A stretch of 64,000 nucleotides of DNA from Limnohabitans sp. Rim8. Lineage in GTDB: Bacteria > Pseudomonadota > Gammaproteobacteria > Burkholderiales > Burkholderiaceae_C. The notes below the pieces were generated by a model. That model ran no database searches. It worked only from the letters and a program-made list of their open reading frames with translations, and had not been told where the DNA came from. The first letter of the stretch is position 1. Each line of letters starts with the position of its first letter. This document shows, one piece after another, positions 15,934-37,955 of this stretch. Location of the stretch: positions 104,767 through 168,766 of the forward strand of contig CAMDFK010000003.1 in NCBI GenBank assembly GCA_945897465.1, given 5' to 3'. Both the position numbers and the translations under genes were made by a program.

Positions 15934-15957
15934 ATTGTATCTTATATAAGACTTGTT
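15934..15957. promoter_or_regulatory. Candidate GntR operator in the DUF3579/argD promoter region
   Basis: The perfect palindrome TCTTATATAAGA (15940-15951) lies between the divergent genes. On the minus strand it is in the 16-nt spacer just before TACAAT (-10; the -35 TGGCAA is weak). The 15 nt GTCTTATATAAGATA are identical to the gntR promoter at 37076-37090. On the plus strand it overlaps a possible TTTACC-N16-TATAAG promoter (15923-15950) for argD. Confidence 0.6.
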
Positions 15958-16037
15958 GCCACTGCAAAATCCGCCATTGCATGACTGAAATGGACTGGCA
16001 AAGACCGGCCCGTTCTGCCTCTAAAATCTGCTTTCAG

Positions 16038-16064
16038 CGGCCCTTCTTCGTTGGGCCGATTTTT
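16038..16064 (+). promoter_or_regulatory. Terminator-like hairpin in the argD leader
   Basis: CGGCCC (16038-16043) pairs with GGGCCG (16053-16058) around a 9-nt loop and is followed by ATTTTT. It ends only a few bases before the AGGAG Shine-Dalgarno (16070-16074) of argD. This position fits an attenuator or a translational control hairpin. No leader peptide was identified. Confidence 0.5.
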
Positions 16065-16081
16065 ATTTCAGGAGTTCACGC

Positions 16082-17284
16082 ATGTCCGCTTTCATTGAAG
16101 CCGCCTCACCGCACACCATGAACACCTATGGCCGACTGCCGATCGCACTCAGCCATGGTCTGGGTTGCCGAGTCTGGGACGTCAATGGCAAGCCCTACCT
16201 CGATGCCCTCGCTGGCATTGCGGTGAACACCTTGGGCCACAACCACCCCGATCTGGTGCCCGCGCTGCAAGACCAGTTGGCCAAAATGATCCACAGCTGC
16301 AACTATTTCCATGTGCCCAATGCCGAAGTGCTGGCGGCCAAGCTGGTGGAGTTGTCGGGCATGACAAACGTGTTTTTCTGCTGCACGGGCCTGGAAGCCA
16401 ACGAGGCGGCCATCAAGCTGGCCCGCAAATACGGCCACGACAAGGGCATCGACAAACCCGAAATCGTGGTTTACGAAAAAGCCTTTCATGGCCGCAGCAT
16501 TGCCACCCTGAGCGCCACCGCCAACGAGAAGCTGAAAAAAGGCTTTGGCCCCATGCTCGAAGGTTTTGTGCGGGTGCCGGTCAACGACATCGAAGCCCTG
16601 AAAAAAGCCACCGAGGGCAACCCGAATGTGGTGGCGGTGTTCATGGAAACGATTCAGGGCGAAGGCGGCATCAACCCGATGCGCATCGAGTACCTGCAAC
16701 AGGTTCGCGCCCTGTGCGACCAAAAAGACTGGCTGATGATGATCGACGAGGTGCAGTGCGGCATGGGCCGCACCGGCAAATGGTTCGCACACCAGTGGGC
16801 AGGCATCGTGCCTGACGTGATGCCGCTGGCCAAAGGCCTGGGCTCGGGCGTGCCGATTGGCGCGGTGGTGGCGGGCCCCAAAGCCGCCCACATCTTCCAG
16901 CCTGGTAACCACGGCACCACTTTTGGTGGCAACCCGCTGGCCATGCGCGCCGGGGTTGAGACCATCCGCATCATGGAAAAAGACGGCCTGATGGCCAACG
17001 CCGCCAAAGTCGGTGCGCATTTGCGCTCTGCACTGGAGAAAGCTCTGGCGGGCGTGCAAGGCGTGAAAGAAGTGCGTGGCCAAGGCCTGATGCTGGGCAT
17101 TGAACTCGAGCGCCCCTGCGGCCCCATCTGGAGCCGCGCCGCCGAAGCCGGTTTGCTGCTGAGCGTCACGGCCGACAGCGTGATCCGCTTGGTGCCGCCG
17201 CTCATCATGACTGAGGCCGAGGCCGACGAAGTGGTGGCGATTTTGGTGCCCCTGATCACCACCTTTTTGGCAGAAACCGCATGA
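16082..17284 (+). CDS. argD: Acetylornithine aminotransferase
   Basis: 400-aa PLP-dependent class III aminotransferase acting in arginine biosynthesis (N-acetylglutamate semialdehyde to N-acetylornithine). Motifs include FFCCTGLEANEAAIKLARK, AFHGRS, DEVQCGMGRTG, and the PLP lysine in PLAKGLGSGVPIGA near residue 255. AGGAG precedes the ATG. Its last codons overlap argF by 4 bp, so the two are translationally coupled. Confidence 0.94.
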   Translation: MSAFIEAASPHTMNTYGRLPIALSHGLGCRVWDVNGKPYLDALAGIAVNTLGHNHPDLVPALQDQLAKMIHSCNYFHVPNAEVLAAKLVELSGMTNVFFCCTGLEANEAAIKLARKYGHDKGIDKPEIVVYEKAFHGRSIATLSATANEKLKKGFGPMLEGFVRVPVNDIEALKKATEGNPNVVAVFMETIQGEGGINPMRIEYLQQVRALCDQKDWLMMIDEVQCGMGRTGKWFAHQWAGIVPDVMPLAKGLGSGVPIGAVVAGPKAAHIFQPGNHGTTFGGNPLAMRAGVETIRIMEKDGLMANAAKVGAHLRSALEKALAGVQGVKEVRGQGLMLGIELERPCGPIWSRAAEAGLLLSVTADSVIRLVPPLIMTEAEADEVVAILVPLITTFLAETA

Positions 17285-18219
17285 GCCTCTCAGCCCCCGT
17301 GCCCGTGCGGCATTACCTGCAGTTCACCGACCTGACCGCAGACGAGTACACCCACCTGTTTGCACGCGCCACCGAAATCAAGCGCAAGTTCAAGGCCTAC
17401 GAAAAATACCGGCCGCTGGTCGACCGCACGCTGGCCATGATTTTCGAAAAAGCCAGCACCCGCACCCGCGTGAGCTTTGAAGCGGGCATGTACCAACTGG
17501 GCGGTTCGGTGGTGCACCTGACCACCGGCGACAGCCAGCTGGGCCGCTCCGAGCCCATCGAAGACAGCGCCCGCGTGATCAGCCGCATGACCGACCTCGT
17601 CATGATCCGCACTTACGGTCAAGACAAAATCGTCCGCTTTGCCTCGCACTCACGCGTGCCGGTCATCAACGGCCTGACCAACGAGTTCCACCCCTGCCAG
17701 ATCCTGGCTGACATCTTCACCTACATCGAGCGCCGGGACTCCATTCAGGGGAAAACTGTGGCTTGGGTGGGCGACGGCAACAACATGGCCAACACCTGGC
17801 TGCAAGCGGCCGAGTTGTTGGGTTTTACGGTGCACCTGAGCACGCCCAGCGGCTACGAAGTGGACCAGGCCGTGGCCGGTTTGCGCAGCGCCGACAGCTA
17901 CAAAATCTTCAAAGACCCCGAAGATGCTTGCAGAGGCGCCGACCTGGTCACCACCGATGTGTGGACCAGCATGGGTTATGAGGCCGAAAACGAAGCCCGC
18001 AAGAAAGCCTTTGCCGACTGGTGCGTGGACGAAGCCATGATGCAAGTGGCCAAGCCCGACGCCCTTTTCATGCACTGCCTGCCTGCGCACCGCGGTGAGG
18101 AAGTCAGCGCAGAAGTCATCGACGGCCCCCAATCGGTCGTCTGGGACGAAGCCGAAAACCGCATGCATGTGCAAAAAGCCCTGATGGAGTTTTTGCTTTT
18201 GGGCCGCGTCGAAGCCTGA
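17281..18219 (+). CDS. argF: Ornithine carbamoyltransferase
   Basis: 312 aa. It makes citrulline from ornithine and carbamoyl phosphate. The carbamoyl-phosphate loop FEKASTRTRVSFE, the LGRSEPIEDSARV region, HPCQILAD, and MHCLPAHRGEEV (ornithine-site Cys) are all present. It forms an operon with argD. Confidence 0.97.
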   Translation: MSLSAPVPVRHYLQFTDLTADEYTHLFARATEIKRKFKAYEKYRPLVDRTLAMIFEKASTRTRVSFEAGMYQLGGSVVHLTTGDSQLGRSEPIEDSARVISRMTDLVMIRTYGQDKIVRFASHSRVPVINGLTNEFHPCQILADIFTYIERRDSIQGKTVAWVGDGNNMANTWLQAAELLGFTVHLSTPSGYEVDQAVAGLRSADSYKIFKDPEDACRGADLVTTDVWTSMGYEAENEARKKAFADWCVDEAMMQVAKPDALFMHCLPAHRGEEVSAEVIDGPQSVVWDEAENRMHVQKALMEFLLLGRVEA

Positions 18220-18221
18220 GC

Positions 18222-18530
18222 ATGTCCAACTGCACCACCTGCGGCGCTTGCTGCGTGAGCTTTAGGGTGGACTTTTCCGTGTATGAGTACGAAGAAGGCG
18301 GCGGCGATGTGCCCGCAGGCCTGGCCTCGCCCATCACCGAGCACACCTGCCGCATGCGCGGCACCGACCACAGCCCGCCGCGTTGCGCCGCGCTCTATGG
18401 CAAGACCGGTGAAAAAGCCATTTGTGGCATTTACGAATGGCGCCCCTCGCCCTGCCGTGAATTTGAAGAAGGCAGCCCCGCCTGCGAACAAGCGCGCCGC
18501 CGTCATGGCCTGCCTGCACTGAACCCCTGA
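18222..18530 (+). CDS. YkgJ-type cysteine-cluster protein
   Basis: 102-aa small protein with the CxxCGACC N-terminal motif (residues 4-11) and further cysteines in HTCRMRG, RCAAL, ICGIYEWRPSPCREF and ACEQ. This is the zinc- or iron-binding UPF0153/YkgJ pattern. Function is unknown. It starts 2 bp after argF and is probably co-transcribed. Confidence 0.85.
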   Translation: MSNCTTCGACCVSFRVDFSVYEYEEGGGDVPAGLASPITEHTCRMRGTDHSPPRCAALYGKTGEKAICGIYEWRPSPCREFEEGSPACEQARRRHGLPALNP

Positions 18531-18598
18531 AGTCTTTTTCACGGGTGTTGGAAATAACCGACACCACGGTTTTTGGGGCGGTGCTACCTTCACCCACC

Positions 18599-19225
18599 AT
18601 GAAAAAACTTTGGGACATTTCTCCAACTGTGGATGCACAAAGCCCGGTCTTTCCGGGCGACACGCCCTACAGCCAACAATGGGCCGCCACCCTGTCGGAT
18701 ACATGCCCCGTCAACGTGAGCGCCATCACCCTGTCGCCGCATGTGGGCGCGCATGCCGATGCCCCGCTGCATTACGACCCGCAAGGCGCGGCCGTGGGCG
18801 CTTTGGACCTGCTGCCCTTTCTGGGCCGCTGCCGCGTCATCCATGCCATCGATGTGGGCCCCTTGATCACCATCGCCCACCTAGAACACGCCCTGAACGA
18901 CGTGCCCGAGCGTCTGCTGGTGCGCACCTACCGCCAGTTTCCGCTCGCACACTTCGACACCCAACTCACCGCCTTTGAACCCGCCTGCGTGCAGCACCTG
19001 GCCGACCTGGGCGTGCGGCTGATCGGCACCGACAGCGCCAGCATCGACCCGGCCAACAGCAAGCAACTCCCCAGCCACCAAGTGATCCGCCAGCGCGGCT
19101 TGCGCGTGCTGGAAAACCTGCTGCTCGACGACGTGCCCGAAGGCGATTACGAGCTGATCGCCCTGCCCCTGAAACTCATGACCGCCGATGCCAGCCCCGT
19201 GAGGGCCGTCTTGCGCGAACTTTGA
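18599..19225 (+). CDS. kynB: Kynurenine formamidase (arylformamidase)
   Basis: 208 aa. It hydrolyses N-formylkynurenine to kynurenine. LWDISPTVDAQSPVFPGDTP and SPHVGAHADAPLHYD (metal-binding HxxxHxD) place it in the KynB cyclase-like family; GTDSASIDPANSK is also conserved. ATG 18599 gives the typical MKKLWDIS start. It is the first gene of a kynB-kynU-kynA cluster. Confidence 0.94.
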   Translation: MKKLWDISPTVDAQSPVFPGDTPYSQQWAATLSDTCPVNVSAITLSPHVGAHADAPLHYDPQGAAVGALDLLPFLGRCRVIHAIDVGPLITIAHLEHALNDVPERLLVRTYRQFPLAHFDTQLTAFEPACVQHLADLGVRLIGTDSASIDPANSKQLPSHQVIRQRGLRVLENLLLDDVPEGDYELIALPLKLMTADASPVRAVLREL

Positions 19226-19248
19226 AACACTCTTTGTCAATCACACCC

Positions 19249-20535
19249 ATGATGAACCTCACCCCCACCTTGCAAGACTGCGAACTGCTGGACACGCAAG
19301 ACCCGCTGCGCGCGTTGCGAGAACAATTTGACCTGCCCGCTGGTGTGATTTACCTGGACGGCAACTCGCTGGGTGTGCTGCCCAAAACCGTCCCAGCCCG
19401 CGTGGCCCATGCCGTGACGCACGAATGGGGCACCGACCTGATCAAAAGCTGGAACACCGCAGGCTGGTTCACCCTGCCCCAGCGTGTGGGCGACAAAATC
19501 GCACGCGTCATCGGTGCCCAAGCAGGTGAAGTGATCGCCGCCGACAGCACCTCGATCAACCTGTTCAAAGTCCTGGCCGCCGCGCTGCACATCGCCAAGG
19601 CCGACCACCCCCACAAAACCAAAATCCTCAGCGAGCGCAGTAACTTCCCGACTGACCTGTACATCGCAGAGGCCTTGTGCAAAGAACGCGGTTACACCCT
19701 GCAGCTGGTCGAAGCCGATGAGATCGCAGCCGCCTTGCAAGCCGATGTGGCGGTGCTGATGCTCACCCATGTGAACTACCGCACCGGCGCCATGCACAAC
19801 ATGCAGGCGGTCACCGCGCAAGCCCATGCCCATGGCATCCTGACCGTGTGGGACCTGGCGCACAGCGCGGGGGCCGTGCCGGTCGACCTGAACGGCTCAG
19901 GGGCCGACTTTGCCGTGGGTTGCGGCTACAAGTACCTCAACGGCGGCCCCGGTGCGCCTGCATTTGTGTGGGTGCACCCCCAGCACACCGACCGCTTTTG
20001 GCAGCCGCTGGCCGGTTGGTGGGGCCATGCCGCGCCCTTTGCCTTCACACCCGACTACCAACCCGCCCCAGGCATCACCCGCTACCAATGCGGCACCCAA
20101 CCCATCTTGAGCCTCACGGCACTCGACTGCGGGCTCGACGCTTTTTTGGCTGCCGAAGCGTTGGGCGGCATGGCCGCTCTGCGCAAAAAGTCGCTGGCAC
20201 TCACGGGCCTGTTCATGCAGCTGGTACGCACGCGCCTGCACGGGCACGGCTTTGGCATCGCCACACCGGCCGAAGAAGCCCTGCGCGGCTCGCAAGTGAG
20301 CCTGACCCGCACCGAAGGCGCTTACGCCATCGTGCAAGCCCTGATCGCGCGCGGCGTGATTGGCGACTTCAGGGCGGGCGATGGTGGCCTGCACCCCGAC
20401 ATCCTGCGCTTTGGTTTCACGCCGCTGTATGTGGGCTATACCGACGTGTGGCAGGCCGCAGAGCACCTGTGCCAAGTCATGCAAAGCGGCGAGTGGCAAG
20501 ACGCCCGCTTTGCGCAGAAGAATGCCGTGACCTGA
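19249..20535 (+). CDS. kynU: Kynureninase
   Basis: 428-aa PLP enzyme that splits kynurenine to anthranilate and alanine. [42 protein letters not shown] and the PLP lysine in [16 protein letters not shown] are diagnostic. ATG 19249 is taken; a TTG at 19222 overlapping the kynB stop is open but less likely. It follows kynB closely and precedes kynA by 10 bp. Confidence 0.96.
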
Positions 20536-20545
20536 AAGGCACCTC

Positions 20546-21433
20546 ATGAGCTCATGTCCTTTCCACACCCCGAACACCGACACCGCAGGGGGCGATTCAG
20601 CGGGTGAACGCATCGTGCACGATGAAAAAGCCCAGCTCGACTTTGACGGTCGCATGAGCTACGGCGACTACCTGCAACTGGACGCCATCCTGAACGCACA
20701 AATACCGCTCTCGCCCGACCACAACGAGATGCTGTTCATCGTGCAGCACCAGACCAGCGAGCTGTGGATGAAGCTGATGCTGCACGAGCTGCAGGCCGCC
20801 ATGGCGGGCATCGCCCAAGACCAATTGCCCGACGCCTTCAAAAAGCTCGCCCGCGTCAGCCGCATCATGGAGCAGCTGGTCCACGCCTGGGACGTGCTGG
20901 CCACCATGACGCCGCCCGAGTACAGCGCCATTCGGCCTTATCTGGCGCAGTCGAGTGGTTTCCAAAGCTGGCAATACCGCTGCATCGAGTTTGCAATGGG
21001 CAACAAAAACGCGGCCATGCTGCAGCCCCACGCGCACCGCCCCGACCTGTCGGCCACCGTGCAAGCGGCCTACGAAGCACCTTCGCTGTACGACGAATGC
21101 CTGCGCCTGTTGCAGCGCCGTGGCCTGGATGTACCGGACACCCACACCCAACGCGATTGGCGACAGCCCTACCCGGCAAGCGTTGCAGTCGAAAACGCTT
21201 GGCTGGTGGTCTACCGCAACCCGCAGCAACACTGGGACCTGTACCAGCTGGGCGAGGAGTTGACCGACCTGGAGGACGCCTTCCGCCTGTGGCGCTTTCG
21301 GCATGTGACCACGGTGGAACGCGTGATTGGCTTCAAGCGCGGCACTGGGGGCACCGGCGGCGTGAGCTATTTGCGCAAGATGCTGGACACCGTGCTCTTC
21401 CCGGAAATCTGGACGCTGCGCACGCAGCTGTGA
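20546..21433 (+). CDS. kynA: Tryptophan 2,3-dioxygenase
   Basis: 295-aa heme dioxygenase that opens the indole ring of tryptophan and starts the kynurenine pathway. [35 protein letters not shown] (heme/substrate contacts), SGFQSWQYR, and the C-terminal [20 protein letters not shown] are all present. With kynB and kynU it completes tryptophan to anthranilate. Confidence 0.97.
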
Positions 21434-21511
21434 ACACCTGAGAGCAGCGAAGATGTCGCTCCACAGGTCTGCGAATTGACACAAACCAACTCGCTGGCAT
21501 CGGTTTTTTTG

Positions 21512-21584
21512 CAGGAGCCCACCCTGTGGGCGATCGGGCGTGGCACACGCCCTCACATGCCATCGCCCACAGGGTGGGCTCCTT
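21512..21584. repeat. REPIN-like element: two inverted REP hairpins
   Basis: Two 21-bp arms, GGAGCCCACC...GCGAT (21514-21534) and its exact reverse complement (21562-21582), face each other. Each arm holds its own hairpin GCCCAC-CCT-GTGGGC after a GGAG foot. Between them is a third hairpin, GGGCGTG-GCA-CACGCCC (21536-21552). The layout matches REPINs mobilised by RAYT transposases. It lies between kynA and the oxidoreductase genes and may act as a transcript-end barrier. Confidence 0.7.
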
Positions 21585-21664
21585 CAGGGTCAAATTCCTT
21601 GCCCCTCTGAACACAAAGCTCAGGCCGTTAACATCACGCATTCTTATCAATCACCAAAAATACT

Positions 21665-22132
21665 GTGCAACTGAACATCAACGGCCAAAGCCGCACCGCC
21701 ACCGCTGACCCCAGTACGCCCCTGTTGTGGGTGCTGCGCGATGAACTGAACCTCACCGGCACCAAATTCGGCTGCGGCATCGCCGCTTGCGGGGCCTGCA
21801 CCGTGAATGTGGACGGGCAGCCCGTGCGCTCTTGTGTGACACCCACATCCACCGTGGCCAATCGTCCAATCAAAACCATCGAATCCTTGGGCACGGCAGA
21901 AAAGCCCCACCCCCTGCAAAGCGCGTGGATCGCCGAGCAGGTGCCGCAATGTGGTTACTGCCAAAGCGGCATGTTGATGGCCGCTGCCGCCTTGCTGGAC
22001 AAAAACCCCCACCCCAGCGACGCCGACATCGACGCTGCCATGACCAACCTGTGCCGCTGCGGCACTTACCAGCGTGTGCGGGCGGCCATCCACCGAGCGG
22101 CGGCGGCCATGAAGAAAGGCGGTGCCGCATGA
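21665..22132 (+). CDS. (2Fe-2S) small subunit, isoquinoline 1-oxidoreductase type
   Basis: 155-aa iron-sulfur subunit of a molybdenum hydroxylase. The plant-ferredoxin cluster [12 protein letters not shown] and the second cluster QCGYCQSGM...LCRCGTY are both complete. Closest in design to the IorA/XdhC-like small subunits lacking an FAD subunit. The GTG start at 21665 gives MQLNINGQ. It overlaps the large subunit by 4 bp (ATGA). The natural substrate (an N-heterocycle or aldehyde) is not visible. Confidence 0.88.
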
Positions 22133-24402
22133 AGCGCCGCACCTGGATTTTGAGCGCCCTGGGCGCTACCGGCGCACTGGTCGTGGGCTGGGGCGCGATG
22201 CCCGCCCGCTCGCGTTTGGGCTCGCCCGAATGGATGCTGCCCACACAAGGCGATGTGGCGCTGAACGGCTGGATCAAGATCGCCGCCAATGGTGCGGTGG
22301 TGCTGGCCATGCCGCGCAGCGAAATGGGCCAAGGTGTGCGCACCGCGCTGGCCATGCTGGTGGCCGAAGAGCTGGACGTGCCGCTCGCCCGCGTGCGCTT
22401 GGAGCAAGCTGGGGCCGACAGCATTTACGGCAACGTGGCCATGCTGGTGGCCAGCCTGCCCTTTCACCCGCTGGACAGCGAAGGGGGAAAACCCGCCAAG
22501 ATCAAACTGGCCGAGTGGATGGTCGGCAAGATCGCCCGCGAACTGGGCCTCAACGCCACGGGCGGATCGTCTTCGGTGGCCGACCTGTGGGAGCCGCTGC
22601 GCATGGCCGCCGCCACCGCACGCGCCAGCCTGGTGCAAGCCGCAGCCGCCGCCTGGAAGGTGCCCGCCAGAGAGATCACCGTGCGCGACGGCGTGATGCA
22701 ACACCCCTCGGGCCAAAAGGCGCATTACGGCCAAATGGGTGCAGCCGCTGCAGGCAGCACCCCGGCGAACATCGCCCCCAAAGCCCGCGCGGACTGGAAG
22801 CTGATCGGCCAAAGCGCCGCACGCAGCGACATCCCCGCCAAAGTCATGGGCCAAGCGCAGTTCGGCATGGACATCCGCTTGCCCGGCCTGCTGTTTGCAG
22901 CCGTGCGCATGAACCCGGTGCTGGGTGGCGCAGCCGCTCCCATGGACACCCAGGCCGCACTGGCCCTGCCGGGCGTGAGCCAGGTGGTGGCGCTGGACGC
23001 TTGGGGCGGCGGCACAGGCGGTTTGGCCGTGGTGGCCAGCAACACCTGGCAGGCCCGCCAAGGCGCACAAGCCGTGAAGGTGCAGTGGCCCGAAGCTGCT
23101 GCAGGGGCATCAGGTGCAGCAGACACCACCCGCATCCAAGCCAACCTGCTCAATGCCCTGAACACCGAAAGCGGCTTCACCTTCCACGAGCAAGGCCTGC
23201 CACTCAAAGCCGAGCAAACGGCCGCCAGCCGCATCGACGCGCTGTACCAAGCGCCCTATCTGGCCCACGCCACCATGGAGCCGATGAACTGCACCGCGCG
23301 GGTGTTGGACGGCAAAGTCGAAGTTTGGGTGCCCACGCAGGTGCCGCAAATGGCGCGTGCCATAGCCGCCAAAGTGGCGGGCGTCAAAGAAGACCAAGTC
23401 ACCGTGCATGTGACGCTGCTGGGCGGCGGCTTTGGCCGCAGGCTGGAGGTCGACTTTGTCGGCCAGGCGGTGCAAGTGGCCATGGCCTGCAAGGGCGCAC
23501 CGGTGCAGTTGGTCTGGTCGCGCGAAGAAGACATGACCCACGACTTTTACCGCCCGATGCACTTGGCCAAGTTCCAGGCGTCCATCGACGCACAAGGCGA
23601 AGTCAGCAGCTTGCGCATCAAGTCGGCGGGCGACGCCATCACACCGCGCTGGATGGCACGGGCCGCGCCGCACCTGTCGGGCCCCATCGACATGCCGGAC
23701 AAAACCACATCCGAAGGCCTGTTCGATTTGCCATACGGCTTTTTGAACCAACACATGAGCCATGTGGCCACCCAATCCGGCGTGCCCGTGGGTTTTTGGC
23801 GATCGGTGGGACATTCACACAACGCTTTTTTCTCGGAAAGCTTCATCGACGAGTTGGCTGTGGCCACCAAGCAAGACCCGCTGGACTTTCGCCTGAAATT
23901 ATTGAAAGACGCCCCGCGTTATGCGGCCGTGCTGCAGCTGGCCGCCAAACAAGCAGGCTGGGGCCAACCCTTGCCCGCAGGCCGTGCGCGGGGCATCTCG
24001 CTGCACAAGTCGTTCGGCTCCATCGTGGCGCAAGTCGCGGAGGTCTCGGTTGAGCAAGGCCAGATCCGTGTGCACCGCGTGGTCTGTACCATTGACTGTG
24101 GCACCGTGGTCAACCCGGACACTGTCGCCCAGCAAATGCAAAGCAGCGTGGTCTATGCGCTGAGCGCTGCGCTGTATGGGCAAATCGACATCGTGGGTGG
24201 CGTGGTGCAGCAAAGCAATTTTCCGAGCTACCCCATGGTCACGCTCAGCCAGGCACCGGTTGTGGAAACCCACATCGTGCCCAGCACCGGCCACCCGGCG
24301 GGCGTGGGCGAACCGGCCGTGCCGCCGCTGGCCCCGGCGGTGGGCAATGCGCTGTTCGCTTTGACGGGCAAAAGGCTGAGGGCTCTGCCGCTCAAGGTGT
24401 GA
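22129..24402 (+). CDS. Molybdopterin-binding large subunit, isoquinoline 1-oxidoreductase type
   Basis: 757-aa Mo-cofactor subunit. The N-terminus [22 protein letters not shown] is a twin-arginine-like signal, so the pair is probably exported folded. Domain signs include [46 protein letters not shown] and the C-terminal [22 protein letters not shown] with the catalytic-type Glu. Electrons are expected to pass via the Fe-S subunit to a cytochrome not encoded here. Location after kynA suggests N-heteroaromatic catabolism, but this is inference. Confidence 0.87.
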
Positions 24403-24420
24403 GTCCAGCTGTCGGGTGAA

Positions 24421-25659
24421 TTACCCGCCGCGCAAAGCCTTGAGGATTTTCTGGCCGCCTCGGCCATTGGTCTCTACCCCTAAGCGCTGTTGTTCGGCGC
24501 GGATCGCCTCGCGCGATTTGTCGCCGAGCATGCCGTCAATAGGGCCGATGTCATGACCGCGCATCACCAGCAGGCCTTGCAACTCGCGCCGCTCGGCGCG
24601 GGACAGGCCTGCGTCATCGGTGGGCCAGGGCGTGGCGAAGGGACCAGCGCCGCGCAGGCGGTCGCTCAGGTGAGCAATGGCCAGGCCATAGCTCTCGGCC
24701 GCGTTGTAGCTGTAGAGCGCGTCAAAGTTGCGCGTGACCAAAAAGGCAGGGCCGTTAGCCCCCGCCAGCGTCAGCAAACCGACCGAGCCCAAATTGGCGG
24801 GCAAGGCCGAGCCGTCCACCCGGCGCACGCCCCGCGCGGTCCAATCGGCCACCGAGCGTTTGCTGCGGCGGCCCTCGCCTGCCAAGGACATGCCTGCAGG
24901 CAGCTTCACCTCGATGCCCCAGGGCAAGCCACTTTGCCAACCCGCACGGGCCAAAAAGTTGGCGGTCGAACCCAGCGCGTCCACGCTGCTGTCCATCAAG
25001 TCTGCGCGGCCGTCGCCATCAAAGTCCACCGCCAGGCGCTCGAAAGTGCTGGGCATGAACTGGGTGTGGCCAAAGGCCCCCGCCCACGAACCCACAAAAC
25101 GCTCGGGCGTGATGTGACCAGCCTGCAAAATGCGCAGCGCCGAGAAAAACTCGCCCCGGAAATAACTTTGCCGCCGCCCGTGACACGCCAGCGTGCCCAG
25201 CGCCTGCACCAACGGGTATTTGCCAAAGGTCTGACCAAAATTGCTCTCCACACCCCAGACCGCAACCACTGTGGCCGCATCCACACCAAAGCGTTGCTCG
25301 GCACGTTCGAGCGCCTGACGGTGTTCGGTCAGACGGGCCTGGCCATCGGCCACACGCTCATCGTCCACCAGGGCTGACATGTAGTCCCAAATAGCGGTGC
25401 GAAATTCGGGCTGAAAGTTCAGCTTGTCTATAACGCTGAAGTCGGCCTGCAGCCCTGCCGTGTGGCGCGCCCAAGTGGCGTCGCTCACTTTGCCGTTGCG
25501 TGCTGCCGGGCGCAGCTCGGCCATGCAGGCCGACAAATCGGTGCTTTGCGCCCACGCGCTGGGTGCAGCGCCCAGCGTGCCCAGGGCAAGGACCAGCGCG
25601 GCGGCGGTCCAGGGCTTCAAACGTGTTGCAAAGCGAAGGATGGGATGAACAAATGACAT
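24421..25659 (-). CDS. Lytic murein transglycosylase (MltB-like) with peptidoglycan-binding domain
   Basis: 412 aa. It cleaves peptidoglycan to 1,6-anhydro products in the periplasm. A signal peptide with hydrophobic core TAAALVLALGTLGAAPSAWA lies near residues 15-38, with no lipobox. The catalytic Glu is in VVAVWGVESNFGQ, followed by GSWAGAFGHTQFMPSTF. A PG_binding_1 domain (LQGLLVMRGHDIGPIDGMLG) lies at the end. ATG 25659 is used; upstream in-frame residues do not resemble a signal peptide. Confidence 0.9.
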   Translation of the reverse strand: MSFVHPILRFATRLKPWTAAALVLALGTLGAAPSAWAQSTDLSACMAELRPAARNGKVSDATWARHTAGLQADFSVIDKLNFQPEFRTAIWDYMSALVDDERVADGQARLTEHRQALERAEQRFGVDAATVVAVWGVESNFGQTFGKYPLVQALGTLACHGRRQSYFRGEFFSALRILQAGHITPERFVGSWAGAFGHTQFMPSTFERLAVDFDGDGRADLMDSSVDALGSTANFLARAGWQSGLPWGIEVKLPAGMSLAGEGRRSKRSVADWTARGVRRVDGSALPANLGSVGLLTLAGANGPAFLVTRNFDALYSYNAAESYGLAIAHLSDRLRGAGPFATPWPTDDAGLSRAERRELQGLLVMRGHDIGPIDGMLGDKSREAIRAEQQRLGVETNGRGGQKILKALRGG

Positions 25660-25694
25660 GAACAAGTTTGAGAGAAGTTTTGAAGCCGCTGAAT

Positions 25695-27689: not shown

Positions 27690-27709
27690 GGTCAACTCCT
27701 TGATTTACG

Positions 27710-28789: not shown

Positions 28790-28891
28790 GGCGGAATCCT
28801 TCGTTTTGGAAAATGACCTTGAAAGGCTAAACCCAACACCCGACTTCGGCTGTCACCCGTGTGGCCCACGGTGGGTCCTGACAATTGAGCA

Positions 28892-29773
28892 TCAGCTAGG
28901 CCAAAGTTGTGTCTCGCCACAAATCGCTGGGTCATTGACACCCACCGCTTCAGGGTCTCGGTGGGCATAGTCCACTTGGGCCAATACGTGGCGCACCACA
29001 GCCAAGCGGGCCCTGTATTTGTCATCGGCAAGCACGATGGTCCAAGGGGCAGTCGGGGTATGGGTCTTTGTCAGGGTTTCCTGAATGGCCTGGGTGTAAG
29101 CATCCCAGCGGTTCAGTCCCTCGACATCGATCCAGCTGAGTTTCCAATGTTTCAAGGGGTCACTTTCTCGGGCCATCAGGCGGCGCAGCTGCTCCGCCCG
29201 ACCCACTTCGAGCCAGAACTTGACCAGCACGATCCCTTCGTCCACCAAGGTATTTTCAAAGTGGGGCAATTGTCTGAAAAAAGCAGCGCGCTGGTCTGGG
29301 GTGCAAAAGTCAAACACCGGCTCGACAACGCCCCGGTTGTACCAACTGCGGTCAAAAATCGTCATCTCGCCAGCCGCAGGCAAGCACTCCACATAGCGCT
29401 GGAAATACCACTGCGTGGCTTGGCGGTCGGATGGTTTGGGCAAGGCAATAACTCGGGCACTGCGCGGGTTGAGGTTTTGTGTCAGCCACGAAATTGCGCC
29501 GCCCTTGCCCGCCGCATCACGCCCCTCAAACACCAAACACAGACGCTGACCCGAGTTGCGAAGGTGACTTTGCAGCTTGACGAGTTCAATCTGCAATGGC
29601 GCCATCTGTGCCAGAAAGTCGTCCTTGTCCATCCAAGTCCGATAGGGATATTCCTGGGTCAAAATGTCGCGCTTTTTACCGTTGCGAATCGCGGCACGAA
29701 TATTCGCCGGAGCGGTCTCCTCGCAGAAGCGACTGATGGCGCCGTCAAATGGCAAGTCAAAGGGGGTGGACAT
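28892..29773 (-). CDS. ppk2: Polyphosphate kinase 2 (class I type)
   Basis: 293 aa. It transfers phosphate between polyphosphate and nucleotides (NDP to NTP or the reverse). Walker [16 protein letters not shown] lies near residues 83-97, Walker B and lid-region [16 protein letters not shown] follow, and [14 protein letters not shown] is conserved. ATG 29773 ([11 protein letters not shown]) is preceded by AAAGG. It is one gene upstream of the aldo/keto reductase on the same strand. Confidence 0.92.
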
Positions 29774-29893
29774 GAAGGGGCCTTTCTGACCAATTGCCTG
29801 CTGTACAGCGCAGAGCATTCCAAGCGTCGATGTTAAATGCCAATTTGCCCAAACCGGTCCATAAAAACGACCTGAGGATCGCATCTTGGGCCT

Positions 29894-30105
29894 TTGGTCA
29901 TGGCTTCGTGGTACAGCGCCACCGTGAGGATGTGAAACAGTTTGGACGCCATCGCCGGCTATTCGGTACCGGACAAAAACACCTTGGTGCTTTTGTCCAA
30001 GCGGTTGGGGAGGCTGCGGGTCCTGGTGGACAACAAAATCGCGACTTCACGTACCTGGGCTTGGCTGCCCATTCAAAGCGAGCAGCCGGGCATTGCAGAG
30101 TTGCT
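29894..30105 (-). pseudogene. Degraded copy of the acnB 3' end
   Basis: The plus-strand sequence from CATGGCTTCGTGGT to GAGCAGCCGGGCATTG aligns along its length with 31457-31660 inside acnB, in the same orientation relative to that gene. Long blocks such as CAAGCGGTTGGGGA are identical. The acnB reading frame is broken by substitutions. The surrounding 29774-30164 holds no other gene. It looks like a partial duplication of acnB left 1.5 kb away. Confidence 0.75.
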
Positions 30106-30164
30106 GGTGTCAAAACTTTGCCACAACGCATGCTTACACTCTTTGATTAATCACAGGAGAGGCG

Positions 30165-30989
30165 ATGCGCCATTTGACCGATACCCACGCCCACACGGTT
30201 GCCAGCACACATGCGTTTTCGACGGTCGATGAGTATTTCAAAGAGGCCGCAGCCAAAGGGCTTCAGCTGTTCAGCATCACAGACCATGGCCCCGAGATGC
30301 CCGACTCGCCCCACCCGTGGCACTTCGGCAATATGCGTGTGCTGCCCAGGGTCAAGTACGGTGTGGCGATGTTGCGGGGCATCGAAGCGAACATCTTGCC
30401 AAGCGCCCGCGTTCTCGATGTGAACGCGACCCTGATGGGCTTTATGGATTTTGGGATCGCGAGTTTCCATGAGCCTGTGTATCCCCCCAGCGACCGAAAC
30501 ACCCACACCGCCGCCATGATCGCCGCCATGGAATCCGGTTTGATTCAGATCTTGGGGCACACGGGCAACCCCAACTTCCCGATTCACATCGAAGAGGTGG
30601 TTCGCGCTGCACGGGACAACAACGTGCTCATCGAGATCAACAATTCATCGTTCGTCAGTTCGCGTCTGGGCAGTGAGCCGCATTGCGTTGAAATTCTTGA
30701 GACGGTGATGCGCCTGGACTGGAAAGTGGTACTGTCGAGCGATTCACACGTGCACGACACCGTCGGTGATGTGGATGTGGCGCTCAGCAAAATCGATGCC
30801 CTGGGATTTCCTGAGGAGCAGGTGGTGTCGATGACCCCAGAGCGACTCCTCGCGTTTCTGGCCGAGCATGGCAAACCAGTCGCGACCGTGCTGGCTGGCT
30901 GGGCGAACTCAAGACGCCATACAGGATCGAATCCTGACATTGCCCCCAACACGCCAAAGTGCTTTAGGCCAACAGATTCAAGTCGTTAA
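30165..30989 (+). CDS. PHP-domain metal-dependent phosphatase (YcdX-like)
   Basis: 274 aa. The PHP metal ligands are visible as DTHAHTVAS (residues 6-14), ITDHG (residues ~38-42), IEANI, HTGNPNF and SDSHVHD. The family includes YcdX-type phosphatases with trinuclear zinc. The family core ends near residue 245. The last ~30 residues (SRRHTGSNPDIAPNTPKCF...) do not resemble it and may be added by loss of the original stop. Confidence 0.82.
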   Translation: MRHLTDTHAHTVASTHAFSTVDEYFKEAAAKGLQLFSITDHGPEMPDSPHPWHFGNMRVLPRVKYGVAMLRGIEANILPSARVLDVNATLMGFMDFGIASFHEPVYPPSDRNTHTAAMIAAMESGLIQILGHTGNPNFPIHIEEVVRAARDNNVLIEINNSSFVSSRLGSEPHCVEILETVMRLDWKVVLSSDSHVHDTVGDVDVALSKIDALGFPEEQVVSMTPERLLAFLAEHGKPVATVLAGWANSRRHTGSNPDIAPNTPKCFRPTDSSR

Positions 30990-31304
30990 GATTTTGGCGT
31001 TTTCAACCCAACATCGGCCAGCAAATTGCTGTTGTCCACTTCGCGAAACGTGGCGAGTGAGCCCACGAACTTCAGCCTGGTGCCCTGTCAGCACACCAGC
31101 GCAACCGCCGCCCACCAATTGGTCTGCGGCAACGCTTTGAAATCCACGATGGGGTCAGCAGCTTGGGGTGATTTGCCAGCGACCGCCGTGTTGGGGCCAC
31201 GACCTGCGCCACCCAAAATGAAAAGTTGTTTGATTATCCATGCTGAGTGTGCTGCATTGGGGTAAACCTTATGCCTATCTGGCCGAAGCTTTTAAGCGAT
31301 TCCA
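30990..31304 (-). pseudogene. Unclassified gene remnant between the PHP gene and acnB
   Basis: One minus-strand frame from about 31226 down to 30988 reads IKQLFILGGAGRGPNTA, then DFKALPQTNWWAAVALVC, an in-frame TGA, and LKFVGSLATFREVDNSN up to LLADVGLKTPKS and a stop. Codon usage looks genuine on both sides of the TGA. I do not recognise the family. It may be the C-terminal part of a dead gene. Confidence 0.3.
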
Positions 31305-31340
31305 TACAAAACGGCCCAGAGATCACTCCCTGGGCCGTTT
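31305..31340 (-). terminator. Rho-independent terminator of acnB
   Basis: AAACGGCCCAG (31309-31319) pairs with CTGGGCCGTTT (31330-31340). On the minus strand it is followed by TTTTGTATGG. It lies about 25 bp past the acnB stop. Confidence 0.85.
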
Positions 31341-31362
31341 CTCATGAGGTCAGCGCCGAAGC

Positions 31363-33954
31363 TCAGGCCGTTACGCCCTTAGCGTTGTCCACGTACTCTT
31401 CAATTTGGTTGAAGTTCAGGTACTTGTAGATCGCCGCGCCGTCTTTGTTCACGATGCCCATGGCTTCGTGGTATTCGGCGACGGTGGGGATGTGGCCCAG
31501 CTTGGACGCAATCGCCGCCAATTCGGCCGAGGCCAAGAACACGTTGGTGTTCTTGCCCAAGCGGTTGGGGAAGTTGCGCGTCGAGGTGGACACGACCGTG
31601 GCGCCTTCGCGCACTTGGGCTTGGTTGCCCATGCACAGCGAGCAACCGGGCATCTCAGTGCGGGCACCGGCGGCGCCGAAGTTGGCGTAGTGGCCTTCCT
31701 TGATCAGCTCGCTCTCGTCCATCTTGGTCGGTGGGGCGACCCACAGCTTGACGGGGATGTCGCGGCTGCCGCCGAGCAGCTTGGCCGCGGCGCGAAAGTG
31801 ACCGATGTTGGTCATGCACGAACCGATGAACGCTTCGTCGATCTTGGTGCCGGCCACGTCGGACAAGAACTTGGCGTCGTCCGGGTCGTTGGGGCAGCAC
31901 AGGATCGGCTCTTTGATCTCGTTCATGTCGATCTCGATGACGTGTGCGTACTCGGCATCTTTGTCGGCTTCGAGCAGCTCGGGCTTGGCCAACCAGGCTT
32001 CGACTTTCTCGATGCGGCGGGCCAAGGTTCGGGCGTCGGCGTAACCGTCGGCGATCATGTTCTTCATCAGCACGATGTTGGACTTCAAGTACTCCTCGAC
32101 CGGCTCAATGCCCAGTTTGATCGTGCAACCGGCAGCCGAACGCTCAGCAGATGCGTCGGACAATTCAAACGCTTGCTCTACCTTCAGGTTAGGCAGGCCT
32201 TCGATTTCCAAGATGCGGCCGGAAAACTCGTTGATCTTGCCGGACTTGGCCACGGTCAAGAGACCCTGCTTGATGGCGTACAGCGGAATGGCGTGCACCA
32301 AGTCGCGCAGGGTCACGCCGGGCTGCATTTCGCCTTTGAAGCGAACCAACACCGATTCGGGCATGTCCAGGGGCATGACGCCGGTGGCGGCACCGAAGGC
32401 CACCAAACCGGAGCCTGCGGGAAAGCTGATGCCGATGGGGAAGCGGGTATGCGAGTCGCCGCCGGTGCCGACGGTATCAGGCAACAACAGACGGTTGAGC
32501 CAGCTGTGGATCACACCGTCACCAGGGCGCAAGGACACGCCACCCCGGTTGGTCATGAAGGCGGGCAATTCGCGGTGGGTTTTGACGTCCACGGCCTTGG
32601 GGTAAGCAGCGGTGTGGCAGAAGGATTGCATCACCATGTCGGCACTGAAGCCCAAGCAAGCCAAATCTTTCAACTCATCGCGGGTCATCGTACCTGTGGT
32701 GTCTTGTGAACCCACGGTGGTCATCTTGGGTTCGCAGTAAGTGCCTGGGCGCACGCCCTGGCCTTCTGGCAAACCCACCGCACGGCCGACCATCTTCTGG
32801 GCCAGCGTGAAGCCGGCCTTGGTCGAAGCGGGCACGGTGGGCAAGCGGAACACGGTGGACGCGGGCAGGCCCAGGAACTCACGCGCCTTGGCGGTGAGCG
32901 AGCGGCCGATGATCAGGTTGATGCGGCCGCCGGCGCGCACTTCGTCAAACAGCACATCGCTCTTGAGTTTGAACTCAGCCACAGTCTCGCCGTTTTTGAC
33001 CAACTTGCCGTCATAGGGCAACACGTCGATAACGTCGCCCATTTCCAGCTTGGACACGTCCACTTCGATGGGCAGCGAGCCCGAATCTTCTTGGGTGTTG
33101 AAGAAGATGGGGGCAATCTTGCCGCCCAAGGTCACGCCACCAAAGCGCTTGTTGGGCACAAACGGGATGTCTTGGCCGGTGGCCCAGATCACGCTGTTCG
33201 TGGCCGACTTACGGCTGGAGCCAGTGCCGACCACGTCGCCCACGTAGGCCACCAAATGGCCTTTTTTCTTCAGGTCGTCGATGAACTGCATCGGGCCGCG
33301 CTTGCCGTCTTCTTCAGGCTTGAACGCCGCGCCGGGGCGGGTGTTCTTGAGCATGGCCAGGTAGTGAAGTGGAATGTCGGGGCGGCTCCAGGCGTCGGGC
33401 GCGGGCGACAGGTCGTCGGTGTTGGTCTCACCGGGCACTTTGAAGACGGTGACGGTGATTTTTTTCTCGACTTCGGGGCGAGTGGTGAACCACTCGGCCT
33501 CGGCCCAGCTTTGCATGACTTCTTTGGCATTGGCATTGCCAGCCTTGGCTTTTTCGGCGACGTCGTTGAAGAAGTCGAACATCAACAAGGTTTTCTTCAG
33601 GCCTTCAGCGGCCACGGCGGCCACTTCGGCGCTGTCGAGCAACTCGATCAGGGGGTGCACGTTGTAGCCGCCGACCATGGTGCCGAGCAGTTCGGTGGCC
33701 TTGGCTTTGGAGACCAAACCGACGCTCAGTTCACCGTGCGCCACGGCGGCCAAGAAGGAAGCTTTGACCTTGGCCGCATCGTCCACGCCAGGCGGCACAC
33801 GGTAAGTGAGCAGGTCCATCAAAAAGGCGTCTTCGCCTGCAGGTGGGTTCTTGATCAGCTCGATCAATTCAGCCACCTGTTTGGCATCCAAAGGCAGGGG
33901 CGGGATGCCCAATGCAGCGCGTTCGGCTGCGTGTTCACGGTACGCTTTCAACAT
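31363..33954 (-). CDS. acnB: Aconitate hydratase B
   Basis: 863-aa bifunctional aconitase / 2-methylisocitrate dehydratase of the TCA cycle. The N-terminal HEAT-like domain begins [22 protein letters not shown]. The swivel domain with [20 protein letters not shown] follows, and the catalytic 4Fe-4S cysteines are in [15 protein letters not shown] and [13 protein letters not shown] near the C-terminus. Also present are [14 protein letters not shown] and [28 protein letters not shown]. It is the last gene of a probable mdh-citE-like-secreted-acnB operon (gap 24 bp). Confidence 0.97.
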
Positions 33955-33978
33955 GGTTTTTTCTCCGTTCAGTCAAAG

Positions 33979-34845
33979 TCAATCGTTGGATTTACCTGTG
34001 CCTGTTTTGTCAAACAGGCCCGGCGGTGGGTTGGTTTTCATGTCTTGGCCAAAGGCCACTTGTTCGGGGTGTGCACAGTCGTCGGCCAAGCGTCGTCCTT
34101 TTTTCTGGTCCATCAGCATGGACTTGTTGGCCAGTTGCAGCCACACGGCACCGCCTTTTTTATCTTCAAGACGCAAGGCACCGGTATTGGTGCGTACAGG
34201 GTACATGCGGTAGCGGAAGCCTTTGCCCTGCACGTGGAAGAAACCTGGCGCTGCCGCATCGGCTTGGACGCGCACACTGGCCCCCATCTCACAGGGCATG
34301 AGGCCTTGGTGAATCTGCTGGGCGATGGCCAGGTCTTGCGACACCGGATCTGAGGCGCTCGGGGGCAAGGGTGCAGGCACCGCCAAGCCGGTTGCTGAAG
34401 GTGTCAGCGGTTGCGCAGCGGACATGGCAGGGGCGGTGGGCATGACGGGCTCCGCGGCCATCGGCGATGCAGCAGGCGCATCGCTGCGCTGGGGAGCCGC
34501 CTCAGTCAGGGCGGGCAAAGCCTGAATCGGTGCAGAGGTCTGAGCCTGACTGGGCTGAGGCGCCAGCGAGGAGCTGGGGACGCCCCTCTCAGAGGCCGCA
34601 TCGTTTGAGAGCGGCGCGCTCGGCGACCCAAAGGCTTGATTCAAGACAGCCTCTTGCGCAGCGGCCTGTGCAGCCGCCTCGGCAATGGCGCGGGCCTGCA
34701 GGCGGGCCGTGAGGTCAGCGCTTGCTCGGGCCTTGACCTGAGCTGATGTTGGGGAGAGCTTCGCTTTGGCGCCGGAATGTCCCTGGCTTTGAGCCCAGGC
34801 AGGCAACAGCAGGGTGCAGACCAAAACCACCAGGCGCTTGAACAT
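33979..34845 (-). CDS. Unknown secreted Ala/Pro-rich protein
   Basis: 288 aa. A signal peptide (MFKRLVVLVCTLLLPAWAQSQG) is followed by an Ala/Gln helix-prone stretch (ARAIAEAAAQAAAQEAV) and a low-complexity Pro/Ala/Ser linker to residue ~180. A folded C-terminal region with two Cys follows (GLMPCEMGASVRVQADAAAPGFFHVQGKGFRYRMYP ... ADDCAHPEQVAFGQ is split here for clarity). It is probably periplasmic. Function is not recognised. AAAGGGG precedes ATG 34845. Gaps of 26 and 24 bp place it in the mdh-acnB operon. Confidence 0.8.
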   Translation of the reverse strand: MFKRLVVLVCTLLLPAWAQSQGHSGAKAKLSPTSAQVKARASADLTARLQARAIAEAAAQAAAQEAVLNQAFGSPSAPLSNDAASERGVPSSSLAPQPSQAQTSAPIQALPALTEAAPQRSDAPAASPMAAEPVMPTAPAMSAAQPLTPSATGLAVPAPLPPSASDPVSQDLAIAQQIHQGLMPCEMGASVRVQADAAAPGFFHVQGKGFRYRMYPVRTNTGALRLEDKKGGAVWLQLANKSMLMDQKKGRRLADDCAHPEQVAFGQDMKTNPPPGLFDKTGTGKSND

Positions 34846-34871
34846 GGACACCCCTTTGAAGACTGCGAACA

Positions 34872-35891
34872 TCATGACAGGCTGCGCTGCGCGCTCATGG
34901 GGGCCAGATCCAACAAAGCCTGCATCGGGGCAGGTAAATGGCAGCCAGTCTGGTGGGCGCGCTCGATCAATTGCCAGAAAAAACGGTAACTGGCGCGGTC
35001 ATGCAATTGACCCGCATGGCTGATGGGTGCCCAGTCAACGGCTTGGGCGGCCAGGATGATTTGGCTGGCCTGGTCTATTTGCGCTTCGCTGGGGGCCATG
35101 GCCTGCAAGATGGGGCGAATCTGGTCGGGGTGGATGCTCCACATGCGGGTATAACCCAGCTCACGGGCGGCCTTTTGGGCTGCCAAGCGAATGGCGTCGG
35201 CGTTCTTGAATTCGGTGACCACGCAGTGCGAGGGCACCTTGCCGTGGGCGTGGCAGGCGCTCGCAATCTCGAGCTTGGCGCGCATCACCAAGGGGTGTGT
35301 GAATTGCCCCTGAATGCCCATGCCCTCAGAGGGAATGGCTCCCGCATGGGCCGACACAAAGTCCATCAGGCCAAAACTGATCGACTGCACGCTTGGATGG
35401 GCCGCGATGTCAAAGACCCGGTGCACTGCAGCCGGCGACTCGATCAACACATGCAGCGGCAAATGCGCCGCTCCGGCTGCGGCCAAGGCGGCCTCAGCGC
35501 GGTTCACATTGGCCACGCTCTCGACTTTGGGCACCATGATGTGGGTCAAGGCATGACCCGCACGGCCCGCGATGTGGCTGATATCGGCTTCAAAACTGGG
35601 GTGGTCCACCGGATGGACCCGCACCGCAATCCGCGCGTCGGCGCGAGCGGCTTTGGTAGACAGCGCCAATTCGGTCACCAATGCCGCGTGTTCGGCTTCT
35701 CCCCCAACGGGCGCACCATCTTCACAGTCCAGGGTGACATCAAAGACACAGGTGCCAAACTCCTGTGTCATGTCGGCCTGCAACTGCAGGCTTTTGCGCA
35801 TCCGCGCCTCCACCCCGCTGTAATGGTCACAGACCGGCAGCTGCACGCTCCCGGCTTGTGCCCCAAGCAAAATGTGGCGCGGATGACTCAC
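34872..35891 (-). CDS. HpcH/HpaI aldolase / CitE-like lyase family protein
   Basis: 339 aa. [47 protein letters not shown] (metal Glu/Asp), [20 protein letters not shown] and [10 protein letters not shown] follow the CitE/malyl-CoA lyase TIM-barrel pattern. It may cleave or form malyl-CoA or citramalyl-CoA type thioesters; the reaction is not proven. The GTG start at 35891 gives the family N-terminus. It lies 20 bp downstream of mdh. Confidence 0.8.
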
Positions 35892-35911
35892 TTTAACGAC
35901 TCGGCCCTGAA

Positions 35912-36898
35912 TCAGATCAGGTGCGCCACGCCCGCTTGCTCGTCCGTCAACTCTTTCAGGGTCTTGTCGATGCAGCCTTGGCTGAAGGCGTCGATGTCCA
36001 GGCCCTCCACGACTTTGTACTCGCCGTTTTCGCAGGTCACGGGGAAGCCGAACATGACGTCTTTGGGTATGCCGTACCAGCCTTGTGATGGGATGCCCAT
36101 GGTGACCCACTTGCCGTTGGTGCCCAAGGCCCAATCGCGCATGTGGTCGATGGCTGCGTTGGCCGCCGAAGCAGCCGAGGACAGGCCACGGGCTTCGATG
36201 ATGGCCGCGCCGCGCTTGCCCACGGTGGGCAAGAACACGTTGGCGTTCCATTCCTGGTCGTTGATCATGGCCTTGACCGACTCGCCCTGGATGGTGGCGA
36301 AACGGTAGTCGGCATACATGGTGGGCGAGTGGTTGCCCCAGACGCACAGTTTTTCGATGTCGGCCACGGCTTTGCCTGTCTTGGCAGCGATTTGCGACAG
36401 CGCGCGGTTGTGGTCCAAACGCAGCATGGCGGTGAAGTTGCTGGGCTTCAAGTCCGGCGCGGACTTCATGGCGATGTAGGCGTTGGTGTTGGCGGGGTTG
36501 CCCACGACCAGCACTTTCACGTCACGCGAAGCCACAGCGTTCAGGGCCTTGCCTTGTGCTGTGAAAATGGCCCCGTTGATGGCGAGCAATTCAGCACGCT
36601 CCATGCCCGGGCCGCGCGGGCGCGAACCCACAAGCAATGCGTAATCCACGTCCTTGAAGGCGGTCATGGGGTCGCCATGGGCTTCCATGCCCACCAGCAA
36701 TGGGAAAGCGCAGTCTTCCAATTCCATCATCACGCCCTTGAGCGCTTTTTGTGGACCTTCGACGGGCACTTCGAGCAATTGCAGGATGACAGGCTGGTCT
36801 TTGCCCAGCATTTCGCCAGAGGCGATGCGGAACAACAATGCGTAACCGATTTGACCTGCTGCGCCGGTAACGGCAACGCGGACGGGCTTTTTGCTCAT
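35912..36898 (-). CDS. mdh: Malate dehydrogenase
   Basis: 328-aa NAD-dependent MDH of the LDH-like family found in betaproteobacteria. The NAD motif [21 protein letters not shown] is at residues 9-29, [18 protein letters not shown] is the mobile active-site loop, [10 protein letters not shown] binds cofactor, and [11 protein letters not shown] holds the catalytic His. It is the first gene of the mdh-CitE-like-secreted-acnB operon, with a promoter at 37036-37065. Confidence 0.97.
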
Positions 36899-37035
36899 GG
36901 TGGAAAACTCCGAAGTGTTGAAAACATGCGTTGCAGACCGTTGCCAACATCCATGTCAGCAAGGCCGTCCGGCAAACCGGACACGCGCTGGCTGACTTTC
37001 TCCTAAAAGCCGCTAACGCAAGCAAACTACTCTGG

Positions 37036-37065
37036 AGTGTACTCGCGAAAACCCTGATTCGTCAA
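37036..37065 (-). promoter_or_regulatory. Candidate mdh promoter
   Basis: On the minus strand TTGACG (37065-37060) and TACACT (37041-37036) are separated by 18 nt. The predicted start is about 130 nt before the mdh ATG. The GntR palindrome (37077-37088) lies just upstream of the -35, around position -53. Confidence 0.55.
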
Positions 37066-37066
37066 T

Positions 37067-37094
37067 TTGTCTTATGTCTTATATAAGATATGAT
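37067..37094 (+). promoter_or_regulatory. gntR promoter with operator in the spacer
   Basis: TTGTCT (37067-37072) and TATGAT (37089-37094) are 16 nt apart. The palindrome TCTTATATAAGA (37077-37088) fills most of the spacer and abuts the -10. Binding here would block RNA polymerase, so the regulator probably represses itself. Confidence 0.7.
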
Positions 37095-37137
37095 GATGCG
37101 GCTGGTATGCACCTGAACCGCATGACCTGAAAGCCCC

Positions 37138-37923
37138 ATGAACCACCCATTGCCACCCAACGAAGCCCTCGCTACCGCTGCTGAATCGGCAGTTTCCACC
37201 CCTGCATTCAGCCCGCTTTACCAGCAAATCAAAGGCTTGATTTTGCAAAGCCTGCAAACCAGCGAGTGGAAGCCTGGCGAATCCATTCCCAGCGAAATGG
37301 AGCTGGCGGCCCGCTACCGGGTGAGCCAAGGCACGGTGCGCAAAGCCATCGACGAACTGGCGAGCGGGCACTTGCTGATTCGCAAACAAGGCAAAGGCAC
37401 CTTTGTGGCCACCCATGCGGAGCACCAGGTGCAGTACCGGTTTTTGAAATTGGTGCCCGATCAGGGCGACCTGAACACCGAAGGCCCTGCCCAGCGCGAA
37501 ATCGTGGACTGCAAACGCCTGCGCGCAACGGCTGAAATCGCCCGCGCCTTGGCTTTGCGCAGTGGCGATACCGTGCTACAGGTTAAAAGAGTTCTTTCTT
37601 TTTCAAATATACCCACCATACTGGAAGACCTGTGGTTGCCCGGCACACCTTTCAAGGGCATGACGGCCGAGCGACTGGCCGACTACCACGGCCCCATGTA
37701 CGCCCTGTTTGAGACCGAGTTCGGTGTGCGCATGGTGCGTGCGCAAGAGAAGATACGAGCCGTGTTACCCGACAAGGCCCAAAGGGAATTGCTGAAACTG
37801 CCGCCCCACACACCTTTGCTCAGCGTGGAGCGTATTGCTTACACCTACAACGACACCCCCATGGAGCTGCGGCGCGGCTTCTACCGCACCGACACCCACC
37901 ATTACCGCAACGATATGAACTGA
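37138..37923 (+). CDS. GntR-family (HutC subfamily) transcriptional regulator
   Basis: 261 aa. The N-terminal winged helix includes PLYQQIKGLILQSL, PGESIPSEMELAARYRVSQGTVRKAIDELASGHLLIRKQGKGTFV (split: recognition helix near residues 62-75). A UTRA effector domain follows (VLQVKRVLSFSNIPTILEDL, then LLSVERIAYTYNDTPMELRRGFYRTD). It sits between mdh and sdhC, so TCA-cycle control is the likely job. The effector is unknown. Confidence 0.88.
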   Translation: MNHPLPPNEALATAAESAVSTPAFSPLYQQIKGLILQSLQTSEWKPGESIPSEMELAARYRVSQGTVRKAIDELASGHLLIRKQGKGTFVATHAEHQVQYRFLKLVPDQGDLNTEGPAQREIVDCKRLRATAEIARALALRSGDTVLQVKRVLSFSNIPTILEDLWLPGTPFKGMTAERLADYHGPMYALFETEFGVRMVRAQEKIRAVLPDKAQRELLKLPPHTPLLSVERIAYTYNDTPMELRRGFYRTDTHHYRNDMN

Positions 37924-37941
37924 CCCTGCCCCGGCTTGAAT

Positions 37942-37955
37942 GTCTTGTAGAAGAC
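37942..37955. promoter_or_regulatory. Degenerate GntR-type operator upstream of sdhC
   Basis: GTCTTGTAGAAGAC keeps the GTCTT...AAGAC arms of the extended palindrome and differs from GTCTTATATAAGAC at two central positions. It is about 100 bp before the sdhC ATG. A TAGAAT (about 37996-38001) further down could be a -10. Confidence 0.5.

Follow-up and report, generated by a model that had tools for sequence, protein, structure and literature searches.

A predicted palindromic operator before an SdhR-like regulator gene, mdh and a distant DUF3579 gene in a Limnohabitans-like bacterium

Introduction

What would a transcriptional regulator encoded among genes of the tricarboxylic acid (TCA) cycle have to do with a small protein of unassigned function encoded some 21 kb away? 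The question is raised by a 64-kb stretch of Limnohabitans DNA (64,000 nucleotides, hereafter the window), in which one perfect palindrome stands both in the promoter of a gntR-type gene and in that of a DUF3579 gene. The initial annotation proposed that a single HutC-type regulator controls itself, an mdh-acnB arm, an sdh-gltA arm, and DUF3579 together with its neighbour argD. Here we follow the palindrome through the host genome, its family and its order, and ask which of these targets it accompanies.

Results

Copies of the palindrome

The features of the window on which the argument turns are as follows (promoters by consensus match only).

15549-15869, minus strand: DUF3579 protein, 106 aa (Pfam PF12112, 130.2 bits against a cut-off of 25)
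15934-15962, minus strand: predicted DUF3579 promoter, GTGGCA-N17-TACAAT, with the operator abutting the -10
15940-15951, no strand: operator core TCTTATATAAGA before DUF3579, exact match
31363-33954, minus strand: acnB, aconitase B (Pfam), behind mdh with two genes between
35912-36898, minus strand: mdh, malate dehydrogenase (Pfam Ldh_1_N and Ldh_1_C)
37036-37065, minus strand: predicted mdh promoter, TTGACG-N18-TACACT, with the operator upstream of its -35
37067-37094, plus strand: predicted gntR (sdhR) promoter, TTGTCT-N16-TATGAT, with the operator inside the spacer
37077-37088, no strand: operator core TCTTATATAAGA, with the left outer half TCTTATG at 37070-37076, common to the gntR and mdh promoters
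37138-37923, plus strand: SdhR-like regulator, GntR and UTRA domains (HutC type), Pfam PF00392 and PF07702 above cut-off
37942-37955, no strand: weak site GTCTTGTAGAAGAC upstream of sdhC, two mismatches, confined to close kin
38052-43169, plus strand: sdhC, sdhD, sdhA, sdhB and gltA (Pfam, Sdh subunits and citrate synthase)

The exact 12-mer TCTTATATAAGA occurs at 15940-15951 and 37077-37088, and TCTTGTAGAAGA at 37943-37954 differs from it at two positions, so that the two perfect palindromes and the weaker third copy of the initial annotation are all in place. No further match with up to two mismatches was found in the 64 kb. Shuffling the window 100 times gave a mean of 0.10 such matches and never more than one, against the three found. 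The 15 identical bases said to be common to the DUF3579 and gntR sites, placed alike relative to the -10, are also there. Across the 3.02-Mb genome the 13-mer GTCTTATATAAGA is found with at most one mismatch in four places only: before DUF3579, between gntR and mdh, and twice, at a spacing of 29 bp, upstream of an isocitrate lyase gene. When two mismatches are allowed, the sdhC copy and three more places emerge; at this level the whole-genome counts are 6 and 8 for the motif against 3 per strand for the reversed control. The exact 12-mer is present in 81 of 90 genomes of the family (89 genera), the reversed control in 3 of 90. The core is rich in A and T and its surroundings are promoter-like, as might be the case for palindromes arising by chance or from promoter composition; the window shuffles and reversed-pattern controls, together with the shuffled upstream regions and conservation counts given below, contradict such an origin, which we rejected as hardly credible.

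Identity of the regulator

The gntR product has the make-up of the HutC subfamily, a GntR DNA-binding domain and a UTRA ligand domain, both passing their Pfam cut-offs. It scored 114 with the HutC model (TIGR02018, cut-off 220) and 110.4 with the PhnF model (TIGR02325, cut-off 156.8), and stayed under the NCBIfam cut-off for every family among the matches listed (25 of 27). PMC4494728 (2015) describes SdhR as a HutC-subfamily GntR protein with the palindrome TCTTATGTCTTATATAAGACATAAGA and refers it to Suvorova et al. 2012 (J Bacteriol 194:3234). Among the papers listed in literature searches on the motif and on SdhR, this one alone looked relevant. The gntR/mdh site reads TCTTATG-TCTTATATAAGA-TATGATG. 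Compared with the published palindrome, the core and the left outer half are identical at 37070-37088, but the right outer half differs, its position being taken by the -10 of gntR; the regulator's own gene therefore carries the palindrome with its right half altered. Because the core, the left half and the HutC-type domain composition agree, we call the window's regulator SdhR, an assignment by motif and domain type. Neither the regulator nor its predicted regulon is new, both being already in print.

Limnohabitans MAGs supply the nearest named loci, with 94% regulator identity. The closest solved relative by sequence is a putative GntR-family regulator (PDB 3cnv, residues 98-261, E 1.6e-54), the match being limited to the ligand-binding part. 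Searching plasmids for the regulator gene gave no match.

In the promoter TTGTCT / TATGAT with its 16-nt spacer, for which a consensus scanner made the same call as the initial annotation, the core occupies the spacer and touches the -10. This own-gene site is present with at most one mismatch in all 109 loci with upstream DNA (94 exact; 110 loci in total, from partly overlapping species) and in every one of the 70 family orthologs compared (63 exact), one per genome. The comparison thus supports a HutC-type GntR regulator whose own promoter, next to mdh, contains an operator. Regulator and site also occur together: among 90 family genomes, 80 have an ortholog and a site, five the ortholog only, one the site only and four neither (p 2e-4); in a set of 80 genomes spread over the order, where E 1e-30 served as the threshold for the regulator, the corresponding numbers are 38, 12, 6 and 24 (p 2e-6). 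Both tests treat genomes as independent, and relatedness inflates their outcome. One order genome (G145:C1) has three exact palindromes and no regulator match at E 1e-30.

The DUF3579 site

The consensus scanner confirmed the DUF3579 promoter, with the palindrome right before TACAAT. In the window's genus the site is found in 16 of 16 loci with upstream DNA, 14 times exactly and twice with one mismatch; a seventeenth locus starts at a contig end (the set includes the window's own). DUF3579 was detected in 83 of 90 family genomes, with 84 matches, and 80 of the 84 upstream regions were compared (two others belong to the genus set; genome G034 and the second copy in G061 were omitted). Judged by their best match, 28 regions are exact, nine have one mismatch, one has two, none has three and 42 have four to six; the site is thus present with up to two mismatches in 38 of 80 regions, the other 42 resembling background. 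With the reversed pattern, the same regions gave one match with two mismatches and three with three. Mononucleotide-shuffled upstream regions reached two mismatches in a mean of 0.2 of 80 (maximum 2), far below the 38 found when the motif was scanned through genome and relatives as the initial annotation had suggested. Among 29 alternative palindromes built from the same letters, the most successful matched 11 of 80 regions, which may overlap the true sites, and the runner-up matched two.

Beyond the family, 40 of 59 DUF3579 matches were fetched, one of which proved to lie inside the family and has an exact site. Among the 39 outside regions one has a single mismatch, none has two and six have three, against two with three for the reversed control. 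Another genome from the family of that single match (f8) likewise has the site with one mismatch, and there an inverted-repeat stretch separates promoter and gene.

Mapped onto a 70-row tree of the regulator, the presence of the DUF3579 site requires 15 changes, a number as low in 2 of 500 shuffles; one branch of 14 rows (support 100/99) wholly lacks the site, and support is weak at many forks. We read this as an old link between DUF3579 and SdhR that would have been lost many times, although the site may instead have been gained repeatedly.

In the 37 sites with at most one mismatch, TANAAT follows directly in 22 and after two or three bases in nine, while other sequence follows in six. No clear -35 was found in the 22; this box is not conserved. 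In one locus (L287, about 2585-2848; G024) a stretch of about 260 bp bounded by inverted repeats separates the operator-bearing promoter from the DUF3579 gene. Two DUF3579 frames have one internal stop each, one without the operator (G041:C50) and one with it (G068:C27).

Might a different regulator, perhaps a paralog, act at DUF3579, leaving SdhR its own neighbourhood and aceA? Many family genomes have additional, weaker GntR matches, and a few have exact sites with no SdhR ortholog detected, which speaks in its favour. In the window, however, gntR and DUF3579 have the same core, placed alike relative to the -10, and the DUF3579 site is absent in three of three family genomes that have a DUF3579 region and no SdhR ortholog, a small number. 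We regard a second regulator as very unlikely. The proposal that DUF3579 is a target holds: judged by its sites, the gene is a well-supported but often-absent predicted member of the SdhR regulon. It may or may not be among the SdhR targets of Suvorova et al. 2012.

The DUF3579 protein

The window's protein belongs to PF12112 by a score far above the Pfam cut-off. Its AlphaFold model (mean pLDDT 83.5, from 18 sequences) has the order strand-helix-strand-strand-helix-strand and matches PDB 2l9d, a structure of the same family (Foldseek, TM 0.72, E 1.8e-08). Foldseek returned no other solved fold below E 0.2; several of those listed above it are ACT or PII-like domains, weak and non-significant matches. 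Because the predicted strand/helix order and these weak matches would fit, DUF3579 could conceivably be a small protein that senses metabolites or modulates enzymes where the glyoxylate and TCA routes branch, induced with isocitrate lyase by SdhR, though we hold this role to be distinctly doubtful. A literature search under the name DUF3579 found nothing.

We also asked whether DUF3579 might substitute for AceK, the kinase of isocitrate dehydrogenase, which has no match in the window's genome. In 82 family genomes there is no clear mutual exclusion: where AceK is absent, 12 have the DUF3579 site and six do not; where it is present, 28 have it and 36 do not (p 0.11). The idea was not supported.

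Isocitrate lyase and other neighbours

The two operators before isocitrate lyase (Pfam) in the window's own genome lie outside the window (G000:C12:47142-47183; L005, 1501-1542). Among the sites listed we sampled 36 further loci, mostly chosen as neither gntR nor DUF3579, and in 24 of them an aceA match neighbours the site; in L291 the gene starts about 630 bp from it. The rest comprise three with acnB directly downstream, five gntR and one DUF3579, and the last three are the gap between isocitrate dehydrogenase and pseudouridine synthase genes, the start of an atp-like operon and an acyl-CoA dehydrogenase region. Paired sites were seen in 18 of 31 aceA loci, with a spacing of 30 bp in 15 of them and of 29 bp in three, and a -10-like stretch often follows the second. 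Apart from gntR and DUF3579, aceA, absent from the initial annotation, is the gene most often found beside the site in the loci sampled. In L288 (position 2502, G019) an exact palindrome lies upstream of an apparent atp operon, with the ATP synthase A chain downstream.

The mdh-acnB arm

The scanner called the same mdh promoter, TTGACG-N18-TACACT, as had been noted beside the gntR site. Seen from mdh, the shared operator is placed farther upstream than the -35, so that its effect could be of either sign; this geometry is at odds with simple repression. At DUF3579 the operator mostly abuts the -10, which suggests repression, an operator at or near the -10 being the usual place of a repressor. 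SdhR might also activate some of its targets, and mdh, with its operator (37077-37088) beyond the -35 at 37065-37060, would be the clearest candidate. At gntR, at DUF3579 and at the second aceA site, however, operator and -10 are in contact or almost so, and we consider activation rather unlikely next to repression.

Of the proposed mdh-acnB arm, the operator beside mdh stands, whereas acnB lacks a separate operator in the window and is placed in the arm only by the run of genes behind mdh. Because just two genes lie between and the gaps in this tight same-strand run are short or overlapping, read-through from mdh into acnB is likely, as judged from gene spacing. The intervening genes are a 298-aa frame without a Pfam match (33979-34875, minus strand) and an HpcH/HpaI-type gene (34872-35861, minus strand). 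In three relatives an operator lies directly before acnB.

The sdhC site and argD

The weak site before sdhC was found, with two mismatches, in 12 of 108 loci (two loci were skipped). Besides the window's genome, the twelve comprise 11 named loci with regulator identities of at least 86%, and the site is absent in several equally close kin at 86-88% identity (for example L021, L022, L024, L025 and L027). An sdh-gltA arm controlled through this site, as had been proposed, is therefore not supported as a general feature. Since the arms of the site are kept while the sequence to its left varies, a role inside this small group of kin is possible.

The gene beside DUF3579 is a class-III aminotransferase by Pfam (argD). 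Nothing ties it to the operator beyond the gap that it shares with DUF3579, its start lying about 130 bp away, and the suggested control of argD finds no support.

Discussion

The sites, their conservation, their promoter-like placement and their tie to the regulator gene are matters of observation. Taking them together, we think it probable that the window holds the core of the SdhR regulon in a Limnohabitans-like bacterium, working in the following way.

Binding, repression, the effector and operon structure are steps that we infer. SdhR would bind GTCTTATATAAGAC, most likely as a dimer. Sitting next to the -10, it would repress its own promoter and that of DUF3579; repression of isocitrate lyase, encoded outside the window, would run through the operator pair there. 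A metabolite at the UTRA domain would release SdhR, and these genes would come on together; as to its nature, a TCA intermediate, acetyl-CoA or acyl-CoA would be our guess. Under this scheme mdh, which shares the gntR operator, may be activated or unaffected, and acnB would follow by read-through from mdh.

DUF3579 thereby gains a physiological context that can be tested: its expression should rise and fall with that of isocitrate lyase and the regulator. In the Burkholderiales, SdhR would be a predicted TCA regulator with an almost invariant operator at its own gene and a distant target that varies between genera, and the regulon may therefore be used for studying how targets are gained and lost.
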